Shown in pieces: positions 4,844 to 17,149 of a DNA stretch of 37,495 bases (position 1 is its first letter; the number at the start of each line of letters is the position of its first letter). The stretch comes from an uncultured Clostridia bacterium. GTDB taxonomy: Bacteria; Bacillota; Clostridia; Christensenellales; UBA1242. The notes under the pieces are model-generated. The model was given only the letters and a program-made list of their open reading frames with translations, ran no database searches and had not been told where the DNA came from. The stretch is taken from NCBI GenBank assembly GCA_949949035.1, contig CATLHJ010000009.1, positions 1 through 37,495 of the forward strand, written 5' to 3'. A program made the position numbers and the translations under genes.

Positions 4844-4872
4844 TCGACAAGAAAATACTTCGGTTGTATAAT
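4844..4872 (+). promoter_or_regulatory. Promoter of the pgk-tpiA-gpmI operon
   Basis: TCGACA (4844-4849) and a perfect TATAAT (4867-4872) are spaced 17 bp apart. Only ten bases separate the -10 from the pgk ATG at 4883, so the predicted mRNA leader is about three bases. No ribosome-binding site fits in that space. Confidence 0.8.
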
Positions 4873-4882
4873 AATAGGTATT

Positions 4883-5929
4883 ATGGGAACCAAGCTACTA
4901 ACGATTAAAAGTGCGCACCTAAAACCAGGGTGTCGCGTGCTGTTGCGGGCGGACTTCAATGTGCCGGTGGACGCGACCGGTGCGATCAGCGATGACCGAC
5001 GCATTGCCGACAGTTTAGTTACCATTAAGTATTGCTTGCAAAAGCAAGTGCGGTTAGTGATTTGCAGTCACTTCGGCCGACCGGAGGGTAAACGCGAACC
5101 ACAATATTCTTTGCGTCCGGTGTACGACCGCTTGCAACGGCTGTTGCCCGCGGTGAAAATTTACTTTGCCAACGACTGCGTTGGGGAACAAGTAGAGCAG
5201 CAAGTACTCAATTTGCAGAATGGCGAAATTTTGTTGTTGGAAAATACCCGCTTTCACGCGGAAGAAACCGCCAATGACGCTGACTTTGCCCGGCAGTTAG
5301 CCAACTTGGGCGACGTCTTTGTCAATGACGCGTTTGGCGCGGCGCACCGCACGCACGCCAGTACCGTCGGGGTTACCGCTTATTTACCCAGTTATGCGGG
5401 TTTCCTTTTAGCACGTGAAGTTAAATATTTGTCGCATTTAATTAAAAAGCCGCAACGCCCCTTTACGGTGATTATGGGTGGCAAAAAGATTGCCGACAAG
5501 TTACCATTGGTGATGAAATTAGCGGACATTGCCGATTACTTGCTGGTTGGCGGGAAGTTGGCGGAAGAATGGCAACCACTTAACACTAACCACCACGCGC
5601 AGATTTTAGTGGCGGCCAACGCCGTTAACGATATTACGCCCGCGACGGTCGCCGAATGGGAGCCGATTATTAACCGCAGCAAAACGATTTTTTGGAATGG
5701 GCCACTGGGGCGTTTTGAAGACCCGCAATACGCGTTGGGCACGCAGGCGGTGGCTACGCTGTTAACGCACAGTGGGGCGCTGACCGTAGCGGGCGGTGGG
5801 GATACGGCCGCCGCGGTAAAGGGCTTCCAATTTGACCACGTGTCAACGGGGGGCGGGGCCGCGTTAGAGTTTATTCAAGGGGAAGTGTTGCCTGGTTTGG
5901 CCTGTTTACCAAGTAAGGGGGGAAAATAA
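4883..5929 (+). CDS. pgk: Phosphoglycerate kinase, unusually short form
   Basis: PGK makes ATP from 1,3-bisphosphoglycerate and ADP in glycolysis. The N-terminal substrate domain is well conserved: RADFNVP (22-28), SHFGRP, LLLENTRFH and VNDAFGAAHR. The nucleotide-binding domain keeps GGKKIADKL, WNGPLGRFE, AGGGDTAAAV and TGGGAALEFIQG. The product is 348 residues, against about 390-400 for the family. The loss is concentrated between VGGKLAEEW and FWNGPLG, where roughly 40 residues of the C-terminal domain are missing. The frame is continuous, so this is not an obvious sequencing error. It is first in an operon, and its stop codon overlaps the tpiA start. Confidence 0.93.
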   Translation: MGTKLLTIKSAHLKPGCRVLLRADFNVPVDATGAISDDRRIADSLVTIKYCLQKQVRLVICSHFGRPEGKREPQYSLRPVYDRLQRLLPAVKIYFANDCVGEQVEQQVLNLQNGEILLLENTRFHAEETANDADFARQLANLGDVFVNDAFGAAHRTHASTVGVTAYLPSYAGFLLAREVKYLSHLIKKPQRPFTVIMGGKKIADKLPLVMKLADIADYLLVGGKLAEEWQPLNTNHHAQILVAANAVNDITPATVAEWEPIINRSKTIFWNGPLGRFEDPQYALGTQAVATLLTHSGALTVAGGGDTAAAVKGFQFDHVSTGGGAALEFIQGEVLPGLACLPSKGGK

Positions 5930-6681
5930 TGCGTCGTCCGGTCTTTTTTGCCTGTTGGAAAGCCAACAAAACGCGGGTGGAAGTATTGAAGTTTTTTGAA
6001 GCCGTCCACCAACGCGGTCTGGAACTTAAAAACAAAACCGAAGTAATTTTGGCGCCGTCGGTGGCGCATTTGGAACTGTCGTTGTTGAAAATGCCGAAAC
6101 CGTTACAATTAGGTGCGCAAGACGTCAGCGAAGTGGCGAGCGGTGGCCGAATGGGCGAAGTTACCGCCAAGCAATTAAAAGAGTACGGGGTAAAATACTG
6201 TATCGTTGGGCATTGGGAAAAACGTTTGCGGGGCGAAACCGACGCCATTATTAACCAAAAAATTAAGTTACTGCAAGACTACGACATCACGCCCGTGTTG
6301 TGCGTGGGGGAAAACTGGCAAGAAAACCAAAGTAACTTGGCACCGGCCGTAATTAAACGGCAGGTGCAGGGGGCTTTGGCGGGGGTCGCCAACGTCGATA
6401 AGTTAGTGATTTGTTACCGCCCGTCGTGGATTAACGAACGTGGGATTATCCCGACGCCGGACTACGTGAACATTATGGCGCAACACATTCGTGAATGTTT
6501 GGTGGACCTAAAAGACAATCCGTTGGATGCCAGTCTACCGATTTTGTACGGCGGGCAAGTCACCCCCGCGAACGTCAAAGAATATATGAAACAACCCGAG
6601 TTGGATGGTATCTTCTTCATCGGGGCGGCCTTAAACATCGATACCTTTTACGGAGTAATCAATTATGACCAAAAGCAATAA
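5929..6681 (+). CDS. tpiA: TpiA-family protein with substituted active site
   Basis: The 250-residue protein aligns to triose-phosphate isomerase over its whole length (MRRPVFF, LGAQDVSE, MGEVTAKQLKEYGVKYCIVGH, PVLCVGE, LYGGQVTPANVKEYM, LDGIFFIGAAL). Several key residues differ. The Asn of GNWKMN is Cys9, although Lys11 is kept. His95 is kept, but the following Ser is Trp96. The catalytic Glu of AYEPxWAIGTG is Arg164, and the mobile loop reads PSWINERG. The phosphate-binding GS and GG sites read GQ (209-210) and IG (231-232). By family knowledge, loss of the Glu base should abolish normal isomerase chemistry. It sits between pgk and gpmI and overlaps both, so it is co-expressed with glycolysis. 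It may be a pseudoenzyme or have a new activity. Confidence 0.88.
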   Translation: MRRPVFFACWKANKTRVEVLKFFEAVHQRGLELKNKTEVILAPSVAHLELSLLKMPKPLQLGAQDVSEVASGGRMGEVTAKQLKEYGVKYCIVGHWEKRLRGETDAIINQKIKLLQDYDITPVLCVGENWQENQSNLAPAVIKRQVQGALAGVANVDKLVICYRPSWINERGIIPTPDYVNIMAQHIRECLVDLKDNPLDASLPILYGGQVTPANVKEYMKQPELDGIFFIGAALNIDTFYGVINYDQKQ

Positions 6682-8191
6682 GTTAAACCCAACAGTATTA
6701 TGCGTCATGGACGGGCTGGGGTACAGTCCGCGAAAAGAAGGTAACGCACCCGTGGCGGCCGGTATGCCCCGCTTGACGGCGGCGTACCAACAGCACCCGT
6801 CGACCCTGATAAAAGCCAGCGGTCACGAGGTCGGTTTGGACAGCGCCAAAGACGCCGGCAACAGCGAAGTTGGCCACAACGCGATGGGTGCGGGGGTGAC
6901 GATTAAGCAGGGTTTGGCGTTATTAAACGATGCGTTCGCGACGGGTAAAATTTTTACGTCACCCACGTGGCAAACCATTAGCACCTACCCCAAACTGAAC
7001 ATTATTATTTTGTTAAGTAACGGACGGGTTCACAGTAATATTGAACACCTGTTTAAGGTACTTGATCAATGTCAAAAGCAAGGCTTGCCGACCAGTGTGT
7101 TCGCCATTACCGACGGCCGTGACGTTAGTCCGCGTTCGGCGGCGGAGTTCATCGCCCAAGTGCCGAACATCGCGGTAATCGGCGGGCGTGGGCAGTTTTT
7201 CATGGACCGTTATCAAGCCCAAACCGAAATGTTAACCAAAGCCTTTGACGTGTGCGTGGCGGGCAAGGCACCGGTGGTTAAGGACTGGCGCGCGCAAATT
7301 AACGACTTCTACCAAAAGAACCCGACATTAAGTGACGAACAACTTCCGCCGTTCATTGTTAATCCGGACGGGCTAATTAAAAATGGGGAAGCGGTGTTAC
7401 TGCTGAATTACCGTGGTGACCGTGCCGTAGAAACTGCCCGCCTGTTTGACCGTGGGGACTATTTAACACCGGCCCAATACGCGCAAATTAAGGACTGCTA
7501 CTTCGCCGGTATTTTGCAATACGACGCAGAATTGGGTTTGCCGAAAAACTATTTGTGCGAACCACCCGTGATCAATAACACTTTGACGGGGTGGTTGTGT
7601 CAACACGGGGTACGCCAATACACGGTGACCGAAACGGTCAAGTTTGGCCACATGACCTACTTCTTTAACGGGAACAAGTCGGCACCGCTTGACCCGCAGT
7701 GGGAAACGTGGCGGGAAATCCCCAGTGACAAATTAAATAACCTGTACGATAAAGCCCCGAAAATGCAAGCCGAACCAATTACCGACGCGTTAATTGAACA
7801 GATTAAAAGCGGTCAGTTCGACTTCCTGAAATGCAATCTGCCGAACCCCGACATGGTCGGGCATACCGGGAACTTTGACGCGGTAGTCACCGCCTGTCGT
7901 ACGGTCGACGACTGCGTCGGGCGTTTGTACGACGTATGCCGAGAACAAGGCGTTAACTTAATTATTACCGCCGACCACGGTAACGCGGAAGAGATGTTAG
8001 ACGAGAAAGGCAAAGTTAAAACCGCGCACACCAATAATTTGGTACCGTGTGTAATTTGCCCGTTCGCTTCGCCCGACGTCAAGTTACGCGACGGTGAATT
8101 CGGGTTAACCAATCTGGCGGCCACCGTTTGCGACCTGCTGGGCCTGCCCGCCGACCCGCACTTCAACCAAAGTATGGTGGTTAAAAAATAA
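6665..8191 (+). CDS. gpmI: 2,3-bisphosphoglycerate-independent phosphoglycerate mutase
   Basis: This enzyme interconverts 3- and 2-phosphoglycerate in glycolysis using two metal ions and a phosphoserine intermediate. At 508 residues it is family length, and its sites look intact: CVMDGLGYSP (metal Asp), GNSEVGH (nucleophile Ser), GRVHSNIEHL, ITDGRDVSPRSA, the Arg residues of GGRGQFFMDR, LNYRGDRAVETAR, TETVKFGHMTYFFNG (Lys), NPDMVGHTGNFD, TADHGNAEEM and AHTNNLVP. The start overlaps the end of tpiA by 17 bases, consistent with translational coupling. Its intact active site contrasts with the altered TpiA next to it. Confidence 0.96.
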   Translation: MTKSNKLNPTVLCVMDGLGYSPRKEGNAPVAAGMPRLTAAYQQHPSTLIKASGHEVGLDSAKDAGNSEVGHNAMGAGVTIKQGLALLNDAFATGKIFTSPTWQTISTYPKLNIIILLSNGRVHSNIEHLFKVLDQCQKQGLPTSVFAITDGRDVSPRSAAEFIAQVPNIAVIGGRGQFFMDRYQAQTEMLTKAFDVCVAGKAPVVKDWRAQINDFYQKNPTLSDEQLPPFIVNPDGLIKNGEAVLLLNYRGDRAVETARLFDRGDYLTPAQYAQIKDCYFAGILQYDAELGLPKNYLCEPPVINNTLTGWLCQHGVRQYTVTETVKFGHMTYFFNGNKSAPLDPQWETWREIPSDKLNNLYDKAPKMQAEPITDALIEQIKSGQFDFLKCNLPNPDMVGHTGNFDAVVTACRTVDDCVGRLYDVCREQGVNLIITADHGNAEEMLDEKGKVKTAHTNNLVPCVICPFASPDVKLRDGEFGLTNLAATVCDLLGLPADPHFNQSMVVKK

Positions 8192-12246: not shown

Positions 12247-12266
12247 TGGTGAAAAATGGTGGATTA

Positions 12267-12275
12267 TGGTACAAT
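12267..12275 (+). promoter_or_regulatory. Extended -10 promoter of cas9
   Basis: TGGTACAAT is an extended -10 ending five bases before ATG 12281. No convincing -35 is present. Transcription would begin at or next to the start codon, giving a leaderless cas9-cas1-cas2 mRNA. Confidence 0.55.
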
Positions 12276-12280
12276 GGGTT

Positions 12281-13162
12281 ATGACCAAAGATTACCGTTT
12301 GGGGTTAGATATTGGGGTAGGCAGTGTCGGCTGGGCGGTTTTGGCGAACGATGTTGATGAACAACCTTGCCGGATCGTGGCGTTAGGGGTGCGTACCTTT
12401 GAAACTAACGAAGTGCAAAAAACTGGCGAAAGTACGGCCAAGGCACGACGCGAAGCCCGTGGACTTCGGCGTCGGACGCGCCGTCGTCAATTGCGCAAGG
12501 CACGGTTAGTCAAATTGTTAACTAAAACCTTGGCTATTGATTACGCCCATCTGTACGACGCTAAAACACCAGAAGACGTTTATGCTTTGCGTGCTCGCGG
12601 CTTGGACGAACGGTTAAGTAACGAGCAACTCGCCAAAGTAATTTTGCATTTATCCAAGCGGCGTGGTTTTCAAAGTAGTCGTCAAGGGGCGAAAGCGGGT
12701 AATGATGGTGCCTTGTTAAAGGCGTTGCAAGCCAATACCGATTTTTTGGCGGTGCACGGTTACCGGACAGTTGGGGAAGCGCTATACCGCGATGAACGTT
12801 ATCGTCAAAGCAACTGTGGCCGTGAAATTTATAGCATCCGTAATCATGGCGGTGATTATCGCAACTGTTTTCAACGGCAGGAGTTATTACAGGAATTACA
12901 TCTGTTGTTAACGCAACAACAAAAGTTAGGTAATGCTGCCCTTACTGCTGATTTTATTACCCAAGTTAGCACTTTATTCAGTGAGCAACGTACTTTTGAT
13001 GAAGGGCCCGGCGCCCCCAGTCCGTACCATTGTGACCAATTTCCCGTGGGGAAATGTACTTTTATCCCGACGGAACAACGGGCGCCCAAGGCTAGTTATA
13101 CGTTTGAATTATTTCGGGCGTGGGACAAAATTACTAAATTACGCGTTAACGATCAGCCTTAA
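12281..13162 (+). CDS. cas9: Cas9, N-terminal part (frameshifted gene)
   Basis: Cas9 is the crRNA-tracrRNA-guided DNA nuclease of type II CRISPR. This 293-residue part holds the RuvC-I motif [16 protein letters not shown] with its catalytic Asp, the Arg-rich bridge helix ([18 protein letters not shown]), [14 protein letters not shown] and part of the REC lobe, ending KLRVNDQP. An ATG at 12266 is in frame but overlaps the extended -10, so 12281 is the better start. The frame stops at TAA 13160-13162, exactly where the homologous sequence continues in the -1 frame. One added base near 13159 would restore [10 protein letters not shown]. The break is therefore a single-base indel, either real or a sequence error. 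Confidence 0.9.
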
Positions 13163-13164
13163 CC

Positions 13165-15678
13165 TTGGCACAACAACAGCAAATTGCGGACTATGCGTTA
13201 GAAAAAGAAAAAGTGACTTTTACCCAAATCCGTAATTTATTAGCGTTAACCGACGACCAGCAGTTTAATTTGTGTCGTTACGAGCGCGTGAAAAAAGGTA
13301 AAAAAGGCGAAACGCCAACGACCTTGGCCATACCCGAAATGTTAACTACGGCGGAGAAAACCGCCTTCATTGAAATGAAAAACAGTTACACCATCCGCCA
13401 AGCGTTGGGTTACAACGCTTCCGGTAGTCACGCAGCAATGTTAGACGCCGTGGCTTTGTGTTTGTCGCTTTGTAAAAGTGACGCCCGCATTACGGCCTAT
13501 ATTGCCGACGACCCATTATTAAGTACCTTAACGACCGTGCAAATTGACGCGCTTAAAGGCCTAAATTTTGACCGGTTTGGGCATTTATCTATTAAGGCCA
13601 TGCAACGCATTATCCCGTACTTGACGTCCGGTAAGCGTTATGACGAAGCGTGCCAATTAGCGGGGTTCGGCACTGAAGTGGTTAGTGGGAAAACTAAATA
13701 TTTGTCGGGTGCACCCGTGAATGATGTGTTGGGCAACATTACTTCGCCCGTGGTTAAGCGAGCCGTCAACCAAACGGTGCGGGTAATTAACGCGTTAGTT
13801 AAACGCTATGGTTCGCCGCAATCTGTAGCAATCGAATTGGGACGAGAATTGGCGCGTAATTTTCAGGAACGTAATAGATTGGCAAAACAACAAGCCGAAA
13901 ACGCCGTCAAAAACCAAACCGTGGTCGAACTGCTGCAAAAAGAACACGGGGTCTTGCAACCGCGTGGGGTGGATATCTTAAAATTCAAACTGTACGAAGA
14001 ACAGGGCGGTAAATGTCTGTATAGCGGTCAACCGTTAACTTTGCATCGCGTTTTGCACGAACCCAATTATACGCAAATAGATCACATTTTGCCGTTCAGT
14101 CGCAGTATGGACGATAGTTACCAAAATAAGGCGTTAGTATTGGCCAGTGAAAACCAAAACAAAGGCAACCGTACGCCATACGAATATTTTGGTGCGGACG
14201 CTGCGCGTTGGGCAGCGTTTACGGTACGGGTTAACTTGTTAAATAACCAGAAAAAGCAAAGTTATTTGTTGAAAACAAATTTCGGGGATGAGCAGTCAAA
14301 AGAGTTCATTACCCGCAATTTAACCGATACGCAGTATTTGTCGCGGGTCATACTCAATTTGTGCCAGCAACATTTACAACTGGTACCCAGTAAATGGCAT
14401 AAGGCCAAAGCCCAAGTGCGCAGCGTTAACGGGCGGGCGACCGATTATTTACGTAAATGTTGGGGACTAACTAAAATCCGCGAAGACGGGGACATGCATC
14501 ACGCGGTGGACGCGGCGGTGATTGCGACCATTACGGCGCAAAGTGTTAACCGAATTGCGAACTTTAACCAATTACAAGAAAAGTTTTACCGTAAGGGTGA
14601 TTTATTCGTTAATGCGTTGACGCGGCAGGTAATGACTGCCGACGAAAAGGCCGCTTATGAACAACAGCAGGTTGATTTATTGGCTGAACGTTTGCCGTTG
14701 CCGTACCCGACTTTCCGCGAAGAATTAAAAAACCGCAGTACGGTTAAGTACGACCGCGATGACTTTACGCCCGACGAAAAAACGGCCTTACGGGAACTGG
14801 GTTATACGGAAGACGAACTGGCAACCGCTCGTCCCGTGTTTATCAGCCGCATGAAAAACGTAAAAACCACGGGCGCGATTCACCAAGAAACTTTAATGAG
14901 TACGCGGGAATACGCAAAACGTCCTTATTTAATTAAAACGGTTAAAATCACCGATAAAAGCATAAAATTGTCTGATCAACCCGAATCTAACCTGTTGAAA
15001 GACGACCCGTGCCCCAGTTGCAGTATTGTTAATTATTATAACCCCGAAAGCGACCGCCGGTTGTATTTGGCACTGAAAAAACATCTGTTGTTAAATAACA
15101 ACAAAATTACCGAAAATGTGGTGTTCCATAAACCGCGTCGCGACGGCACCGACGGCCCAGTGGTGAAAACGGTTAAGATTTACGTAAAAAATAACAAGGC
15201 CGTGATTTTGCCGAACGGGGCGGCGGCCAATGCCGGCATGTACCGTGTCGACGTGTTTACTAAACAGGGCAAGTATTATCTGTGTCCAGTCTATTATGCG
15301 GACGTGTATGCGCACCGGTTGCCTAACCAAGTAATTGAAATTGGTAAAGATTGGACAACCATCGATGACAGTTTTACCTTTAAGTTTAGTTTGTACCAAA
15401 ACGATTTAATCCGCGTTAAGAGTAAAAACGAGATTATTCTCAATAAAGAACAGCAAAACGAAAAATCAAAAAAACCACAAACGATTACGGGTAAGGATTT
15501 TTTACTGTATTACAATAATACTGGCATCAACGGCGCAAAATTTGGTGTCAAAACCCATGATCGTTGTTATGGGCAAAAAAGTTTAGGCGTTAAAACCTTG
15601 TTGTCGATTGAAAAATGTTACGTTGATTTATTGGGTAAAGTGTACGCTGCACCGCCGGAAAAGAGGCGAGAAATCTGA
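13165..15678 (+). CDS. cas9: Cas9, C-terminal part (frameshifted gene)
   Basis: This frame continues the Cas9 broken at 13160. It starts with the rest of the REC region ([20 protein letters not shown]) and contains RuvC-II ([14 protein letters not shown]), the HNH nuclease ([14 protein letters not shown] with [18 protein letters not shown]) and RuvC-III ([13 protein letters not shown]), then the C-terminal PAM-interacting region. All nuclease residues expected are present. A restored protein would be about 1,130 residues, as in type II-C. TTG 13165 lies two bases after the upstream stop, so reinitiation could give a separate C-terminal half, but no ribosome-binding site is visible. The stop overlaps the cas1 ATG. 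Confidence 0.9.
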
Positions 15679-16571
15679 TGGGGTACATCAATATCTTTGC
15701 CAGTAGCAAAGCCCACGTGGCAGTGAAAAACGAGCAACTGGTTTTGACTAATGACCAAAAACAAATGGATTACCCGCTAACCGATATCAGCAGTGTAATG
15801 TTGGAAAATCGGGAAACCACTATTTCGACTTACGCGTTGTCGGAACTGGCGGCACACAATATTTTGGTCTTTATCTGTGACCAAGCCCACTTACCCAACG
15901 GGGTGTTATTGCCGTTTAACAGTTACTACCAAGCCTTGACCCAATATCATTGGCAAATTGCAATGCCCAAACCCTTACAAAAACAACTGTGGCAAAGTAT
16001 CGTTAAAAATAAAATTGCGAACCAAAACCAAGTGCTGAACTTATGTGGCGGTCACGACGAATTAAAACCGTTAATTGGGGCAGTGTTAAGCGACGATGCT
16101 ACCAACGTAGAAGCCAAAGCCAGCCTGTTGTACTTTAAGGCGTTATTTGGCCCCCAATTTATCCGTCGTGACGACAATGTGCTTAACGCCTGTCTTAATT
16201 ACGGCTACGCTATTATCCGCGGTTTTGTGGCCCGCAGTATTACCGCCCACGGCTTATTACCATTTTTGGGTATTCATCACGCTAATCAATTAAACAACTT
16301 TAATTTGGCCGACGATTTAATGGAAGTGTTCCGTCCCGTAGTCGATTTGTTGGTTAAGCAAGAATTGGGTAACGTAACGGAATTGACGACTACGGTTAAG
16401 GCGCAACTTTACAATTTAATGAACGTCGAAGTTGGGGTTGAACGCGGTAAGTATGCGCTGGACTACGCCATTGAATTGCTGGTGCAAAATTTTATTAAAA
16501 GTGCGAAAGAAAAAAGTAATTGCTTATCGTCAATTACCATTTTCGGGTTAGGAACCCACCGGTATGAGTAG
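15678..16571 (+). CDS. cas1: CRISPR-associated endonuclease Cas1
   Basis: Cas1 is the integrase of spacer acquisition and works as a complex with Cas2. The 297-residue protein has the Cas1 landmarks of type II systems: an N-terminal beta domain (YPLTDISSVMLENRETTIST), then the alpha-helical domain with the metal ligands in NVEAKASLLYF (Glu), FLGIHHANQLNNFNLADDLM (His) and EVFRPVVD (acidic residue). The start ATG overlaps the cas9 stop (TGATG), and cas2 overlaps its end by eight bases, so the three genes form one coupled operon. There is no csn2 or cas4, which points to subtype II-C. Confidence 0.96.
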   Translation: MGYINIFASSKAHVAVKNEQLVLTNDQKQMDYPLTDISSVMLENRETTISTYALSELAAHNILVFICDQAHLPNGVLLPFNSYYQALTQYHWQIAMPKPLQKQLWQSIVKNKIANQNQVLNLCGGHDELKPLIGAVLSDDATNVEAKASLLYFKALFGPQFIRRDDNVLNACLNYGYAIIRGFVARSITAHGLLPFLGIHHANQLNNFNLADDLMEVFRPVVDLLVKQELGNVTELTTTVKAQLYNLMNVEVGVERGKYALDYAIELLVQNFIKSAKEKSNCLSSITIFGLGTHRYE

Positions 16572-16884: not shown

Positions 16885-16890
16885 TAACCT

Positions 16891-17110
16891 ATTATACCAT
16901 ACCATCAAATAATAGGGAACTAGAACGCTTACGCCATCATGCACAGCGGTCAAGTTATTATACCATACCATCAAATAATAGGGAACTAGAACGTCCTAAT
17001 GGCTTTATTTGGCGAATTATACATTATACCATACCATCAAATAATAGGGAACTAGAACCCGCACTGGCGGTTGCCAACGGGGTTTTGTATTATACCATAC
17101 CATCAAATAA
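16891..17110 (-). CRISPR. Type II-C CRISPR array, three spacers, transcribed on the minus strand
   Basis: Three identical 36-base repeats (16891-16926, 16957-16992, 17023-17058) and a fourth that matches only for its first 22 bases (17089-17110) enclose three unique 30-base spacers. In crRNA orientation (minus strand) the repeat begins GTTCTAGTTCCC and ends TGGTATAAT. Its pairing with the tracrRNA anti-repeat fixes this direction, opposite to cas9-cas1-cas2. The repeat end is a consensus extended -10 promoter, as known for type II-C arrays of Neisseria, so each crRNA may be transcribed from the repeat before it, starting about seven bases into the spacer. The incomplete repeat is at the transcription-upstream end and keeps exactly the promoter half. 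Confidence 0.96.
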
Positions 17111-17149
17111 CCGGAGCATTACCGAAGTCACGTTCAACCAATAGACCGA

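Follow-up and report, generated by a model that had tools for sequence, protein, structure and literature searches.

The window, a stretch of 37,495 nucleotides from an uncultured Clostridia bacterium, carries a compact operon in which a homologue of triose-phosphate isomerase (TIM) lies between pgk and gpmI. We label this homologue, which lacks the catalytic glutamate of the family, pTIM. The three genes are tightly packed: the ATG of pTIM overlaps the stop codon of pgk (TAATG), and gpmI overlaps the pTIM frame by 17 bases. The features of the operon are as follows.

4844–4872, forward strand: promoter-like sequence TCGACA-17-TATAAT directly upstream of pgk, matching the consensus at 11 of 12 positions and assigned by consensus match only
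4883–5929, forward strand: pgk, a shortened phosphoglycerate kinase of 348 amino acids (PF00162, E 7e-113, matched in two stretches)
5929–6681, forward strand: pTIM, TIM homologue without the catalytic Glu (translation, family match, predicted fold)
5953–5955, forward strand: Cys9 of pTIM in place of the Asn of NWK, giving CWK (alignment)
6211–6213, forward strand: His95 of pTIM, kept in the window and replaced by Asp in the seven other close genus sequences aligned
6418–6420, forward strand: Arg164 of pTIM (codon CGC) at the position of catalytic Glu165 in yeast numbering (alignment)
6556–6558, forward strand: Gln210 of pTIM in place of phosphate-binding Ser211 (alignment)
6619–6621, forward strand: Ile231 of pTIM in place of phosphate-binding Gly232 (alignment)
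6665–8191, forward strand: gpmI, cofactor-independent phosphoglycerate mutase (TIGR01307 above cut-off, tree, motifs)

Elsewhere in the window, a Cas9-like frame within 12266–15678 is broken, probably by a frameshift, so that its two ORFs (12266–13162 and 13165–15678) are out of frame with each other; a further ORF at 15678–16571 follows directly. Downstream lies a short CRISPR-like array (16890–17125) of four direct repeats with 66-nt spacing, the last of which is truncated or diverged.

The pTIM frame translates to 250 amino acids with homology to TIM along its full length, as the initial annotation had read it from the letters. PF00121 covers residues 7–246 with 181.9 bits (E 2e-53, cut-off 20.1, profile positions 4–244 of 245), and the closest solved relative is the TIM of S. 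aureus (E 2.7e-37). The AlphaFold2 model is a confident TIM barrel (pLDDT 92.0, pTM 0.91) whose top PDB match in Foldseek is the TIM of T. thermophilus, with a TM-score of 0.92. By descent and predicted fold, pTIM belongs to the TIM family.

The active site tells a different story from the fold. The catalytic base of TIM is a glutamate, and pTIM has Arg164 there, within the motif CYRP. Every substitution listed in the initial annotation is present in the translation: beyond Cys9 and Arg164, Trp96 follows His95 where canonical TIM has Ser96, loop 6 reads PSWINERG, and the phosphate-binding sites are GGQ for GGS and IG for GG. The phosphate grip is changed, with Glu170 for Gly171, Gln210 for Ser211 and Ile231–Gly232 for Gly232–Gly233. 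The equivalog model TIGR00419 gives the window protein 106.1 bits against a cut-off of 130.6; the pTIM clade described below scores 102–133, one member (from genome G023) reaching 132.6 bits and so passing the cut-off, and canonical relatives score 159–174. In three features of a functional TIM that could be checked computationally, namely equivalog score, catalytic base and phosphate grip, pTIM falls short; it keeps Lys13 and the electrophile His95.

The genome from which the window comes is 1.09 Mb and 89.75% complete, and a PF00121 search for a second, canonical tpiA found pTIM as its only TIM match. Nine further genomes of the genus hold the pTIM gene, mostly in the order pgk–TIM–gpmI. Arg occupies the Glu165 position in nine of nine genus genomes with sequence there, the window included; the copy in G006 stops at a contig edge before this site and is left out of the count. 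Residue 95 is Asp in 8/10 genomes, His being found only in the window genome and in the basal member G003. A full-length canonical TIM was not found in any of the ten, and since G003 retains a C-terminal piece of one at the end of its contig 15 (locus L035), the canonical enzyme seems to have been lost inside the genus. Most members are metagenome-assembled genomes recovered from the gut of ruminants; for G003 and the sister genera, the isolate codes look like those of termite-gut samples. The statements on gene content rest on family searches of genomes. A sequencing, binning or annotation artefact would be a rival account, in which the assembly simply failed to capture a normal tpiA. The completeness of the window genome leaves about a 10% chance of missing any one gene, but the canonical copy is absent from nine genus genomes, for which the completeness values give a chance of about 4e-8 if the absences are independent. 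A sequencing error had been judged improbable because GAA or GAG to CGC needs at least two base changes; this understated the case, as the codons differ at all three positions, and the judgement itself holds because the same Arg recurs in nine genomes. We reject an artefact as very improbable.

A profile built from pTIM-type proteins, run against 297 genomes of the family, separates these proteins sharply: 17 genomes score at least 310 bits, with the partial copy of G006 in addition, and all other matches listed score at most 200 bits. The high scorers outside the genus fall in three sister genera, g4 (G012, G077), g7 (G015, G079, G101, G120, G138) and g15 (G023). All eight of these genomes carry a second TIM at another place, canonical in those read (NWKM, GHSE, AYEP), while their operonic copy has Met (g4) or Gln (g7, g15) for Glu165, Gly or Gln for Ser211, and at least one glycine of Gly232–Gly233 replaced. 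Glu165 is thus lost in 17/17 clade members with sequence there (Arg in nine, Gln or Met in eight), and its loss was not found in any other TIM examined outside the clade. Among the TIMs examined, Arg at this site is confined to the window's genus, its sister group having Gln or Met. Lys13, Trp168 and, in loop 3, Gln64 and Gly76 do not vary among the clade members that were aligned.

In a quick tree with SH-aLRT support, the 17 pTIM rows form one clade (100) apart from the canonical second copies, which form a separate clade (97) that also takes in the operonic TIM from G031, where the pTIM paralogue is absent. This makes the operonic copy of the pTIM clade an ancient paralogue, a xenologue being the less probable alternative; support for its deeper placement is weak. 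Three candidates for membership, L053, L058 and L049 (from G025, G033 and G018), were excluded as they keep Glu165; they are very divergent TIMs with changes in NWK, the neighbourhood of His95 or loop 6. The survey also returned no TIM match in 32 of the 297 genomes, several of them nearly complete (for example G026, G062, G072 and G092), and G026 has no match with PF00121 either. TIM loss may have been repeated within the family.

The coexistence of both proteins in eight genomes of three genera raises the possibility of an origin like that of prozymes, in which pTIM began by regulating canonical TIM as its partner in mixed dimers; what the window's genus retains would be a leftover with a changed partner. 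TIM is normally a dimer, and the invariance of Gln64 and Gly76 in loop 3 fits such pairing. The window's genus, however, has no canonical TIM apart from the G003 fragment, so this cannot be the present role there, and the genes to which pTIM is linked are pgk and gpmI rather than canonical tpiA. We consider this origin improbable.

Central metabolism differs between the genera. Phosphofructokinase (PF00365) is found in 0/10 genomes of the window's genus, is absent from G023 and is present in 7/7 of g4 and g7; phosphoketolase (PF03894) occurs in 9/10 genus genomes and in G023, and in 0/7 of g4 and g7. GAPDH is present in all ten genus genomes, and a class II aldolase in three, the window genome among them. 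From known pathways, glyceraldehyde 3-phosphate (GAP) derived from phosphoketolase most likely feeds lower glycolysis in the genus. With no phosphofructokinase, little class II aldolase and a phosphoketolase in place, the catabolic need for TIM would be gone. Dihydroxyacetone phosphate (DHAP) should still be needed for lipids, because the glycerol-3-phosphate (G3P) dehydrogenase GpsA (8/10) and PlsY (10/10) are retained.

Loss of upper glycolysis would also allow a simpler account, in which TIM became dispensable and the operonic copy is drifting towards decay. That the genus no longer has phosphofructokinase or canonical TIM, and has few class II aldolases, agrees with this, as does the relaxed constraint on the pocket described below. 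The gene is nonetheless under strong purifying selection: pairwise dN/dS within the genus is about 0.02–0.13, similar to that of pgk and gpmI, over pairs with dS near or often above 1 and in part saturated, which makes single values rough. A canonical TIM control gave 0.055, as one value, the next pair being saturated. No genome has an internal stop codon in pTIM, and the predicted fold is intact. Moreover, g4 and g7 lost the Glu with phosphofructokinase and canonical TIM both present, so the change needs no loss of glycolysis. Decay, largely ruled out by the dN/dS values, is very improbable. With catalytic residues lost and the protein held by purifying selection, pTIM has the two marks of a pseudoenzyme.

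Where that selection acts appears to have changed. In the genus, 16 of 28 first-shell residues are invariant, against 129 of the 222 others (p 0.62), whereas in six partly overlapping sets of canonical TIMs the active-site shell far exceeds the remaining residues in invariance (p 5e-3 to 1e-11). For this test and for the one at matched divergence below, we chose the pocket residues and cut-offs ourselves, and the genus sequences are closely related, which limits the power. The pTIMs of g4 and g7 lie between, with pocket conservation above background (p 0.0013) and a smaller excess than in the canonical sets. When two sets of equal divergence are compared (mean identity 45% in each), constraint is lost at 21 positions, of which 11 belong to the pocket, and gained at 11, all outside it: R2, P43, P56, L61, K89, Y90, G102, K113, G152, V153 and R188. 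Constraint seems to have shifted away from the pocket, towards other regions of the barrel, as a binding or structural role predicts.

The main rival to a pseudoenzyme partner is an altered catalytic role, which we hold to be rather unlikely. It would make pTIM either a slow GAP–DHAP isomerase that uses another base and can still supply lipid synthesis, or the catalyst of a new reaction whose anionic substrate would be bound by Lys13 and Arg164. Lys13, Trp168 and Arg164 are indeed invariant in the genus, and the frame is strongly selected. The need for DHAP points the same way: with GpsA and PlsY kept and the sources searched mostly missing, some enzyme should still make DHAP. Canonical TIM, glycerol kinase (0/18 genomes searched) and DeoC/FbaB-type aldolases (0/10 genus genomes) were not found, and 7/10 genus genomes, lacking a class II aldolase, have no DHAP source among these families. 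However, DHAP may come by routes beyond the families searched, such as dihydroxyacetone kinase, PfkB-type kinases, PF00596 aldolases and uptake of G3P. The pocket itself also argues against catalysis: in the genus its positions, taken together, show no more conservation than the remainder of the protein, His95 of the window gives way to Asp in close relatives, residues 96, 97 and 169 vary, and Ser211 and Gly232 of the phosphate grip are changed. The change E165D alone lowers the kcat/Km of TIM 420-fold (PMC12874384), a cost that we count against an isomerase and for pTIM as a pseudoenzyme. A broader wording, that the Arg-for-Glu protein gained a new catalytic or metabolite-sensing function beside Pgk and GpmI in a TIM-less genus whose DHAP for lipids comes by a route that our searches did not find, perhaps through pTIM itself, strikes us as doubtful to a similar degree.

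Both neighbours of pTIM are themselves atypical. The Pgk of the genus has about 348 residues instead of about 395; the alignment shows two gaps, about 50 residues together, in the C-terminal domain, which binds the nucleotide. This shortening is confined to the window's genus (window 4883–5929 and loci L032, L033 and L036–L041). The substrate-binding motifs are kept, and the shortened protein is predicted to fold (AF2 pLDDT 90.2), its top structure matches being PGK. The GpmI beside pTIM forms a lineage of its own among the GpmI examined, on a very long stem of 1.6 changes per site (SH-aLRT 100), and in this material occurs only beside pTIM (window 6665–8191, L034, L048, L052, L087, L154), which suggests that the family's usual gpmI was replaced there. 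Among solved structures, the GpmI of Leishmania is a closer match to it than the Bacillus type is, and in the window its catalytic motifs read intact from the translation. Judged by sequence, the shortened Pgk and the deep GpmI lineage make for an unusual operon, and neither implies a complex. The linkage has exceptions: g4 has no gpmI beside pTIM, G003 has no pgk beside it, and in G120 pgk and pTIM lie about 2 kb apart, with other ORFs between them.

Taken together, pTIM is probably a pseudoenzyme that acts as a partner or regulator of the co-encoded Pgk and GpmI. The initial annotation had proposed both parts, with an enzyme of new reaction as the alternative. The first, the pseudoenzyme, is well supported by the genus-wide loss of Glu165, the loss of His95 in 8/10 genomes, the relaxed pocket, purifying selection and the canonical TIMs of the sister genera; the second, a scaffold or regulator for Pgk or GpmI, is plausible in view of genes that stay closely linked, and in part overlap, across genera. 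Tree and distribution indicate the following course. Four genera share a second TIM lineage in a pgk–TIM–gpmI operon, in which the catalytic Glu gave way to Gln, Met or Arg and the phosphate-gripping glycine pair was broken, and three of the four also keep a canonical, unlinked TIM. In the window's genus, with phosphoketolase and no phosphofructokinase, the canonical copy appears to have vanished, leaving the fragment in G003, and His95 went too in 8/10 genomes. Strong purifying selection persists, no longer specially at the pocket. The resulting protein would be non-catalytic, most likely a dimer that serves as a structural or regulatory partner and is produced alongside Pgk and GpmI through translational coupling. 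Against the pseudoenzyme count the invariant Lys13 and Trp168 of the clade, which keep part of the pocket, the pocket conservation above background in g4 and g7, and the retention of GpsA and PlsY with few DHAP sources found in the genus; against the partner role counts a linkage to pgk and gpmI that is not absolute.

A TIM paralogue that, in a group of gut bacteria with small genomes, lost its base, stayed under strong selection and outlived the real enzyme would be a natural experiment in how a catalytic fold turns non-catalytic. The genus appears to have lost its normal TIM enzyme, which raises the question of where the DHAP for its phospholipids comes from. Annotation will name the pTIM gene tpiA and so predict a glycolysis that is absent from the genus.

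We found no report of a natural TIM without Glu165, or of a TIM pseudoenzyme, in the open-access literature. With canonical TpiA (PF00121, TIGR00419), pTIM shares full-length homology, the predicted barrel, Lys13, Trp168, Gln64 and Gly76, and the place in the operon between pgk and gpmI. It differs in the replacement of Glu165, Asn11, Ser96, Ser211 and Gly232, in the altered loop 6, and in a window score below the TIGR00419 cut-off; most close relatives of pTIM have lost His95 as well. According to PMC7729029, which cites Schurig 1995, Thermotoga has a bifunctional Pgk–TIM fusion (NF010569). It resembles our operon in tying TIM physically to Pgk, so that a Pgk–TIM complex is tolerated, and differs in that the fused TIM is active, whereas pTIM and Pgk are separate polypeptides. 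Prozyme-type pseudoenzymes, such as the dead AdoMetDC paralogue of trypanosomes (PMC6221367), are catalytically dead paralogues that coexist with an active one, a situation also seen in g4, g7 and g15. They have another fold, however, and in the window's genus the active partner is gone; any activation of a partner by pTIM would be hypothetical. The PGK-like proteins of kinetoplastids that lack catalytic residues (PMC7729029) are, like pTIM, retained glycolytic homologues without their catalytic residues, but they are multidomain, eukaryotic proteins with the PGK fold.
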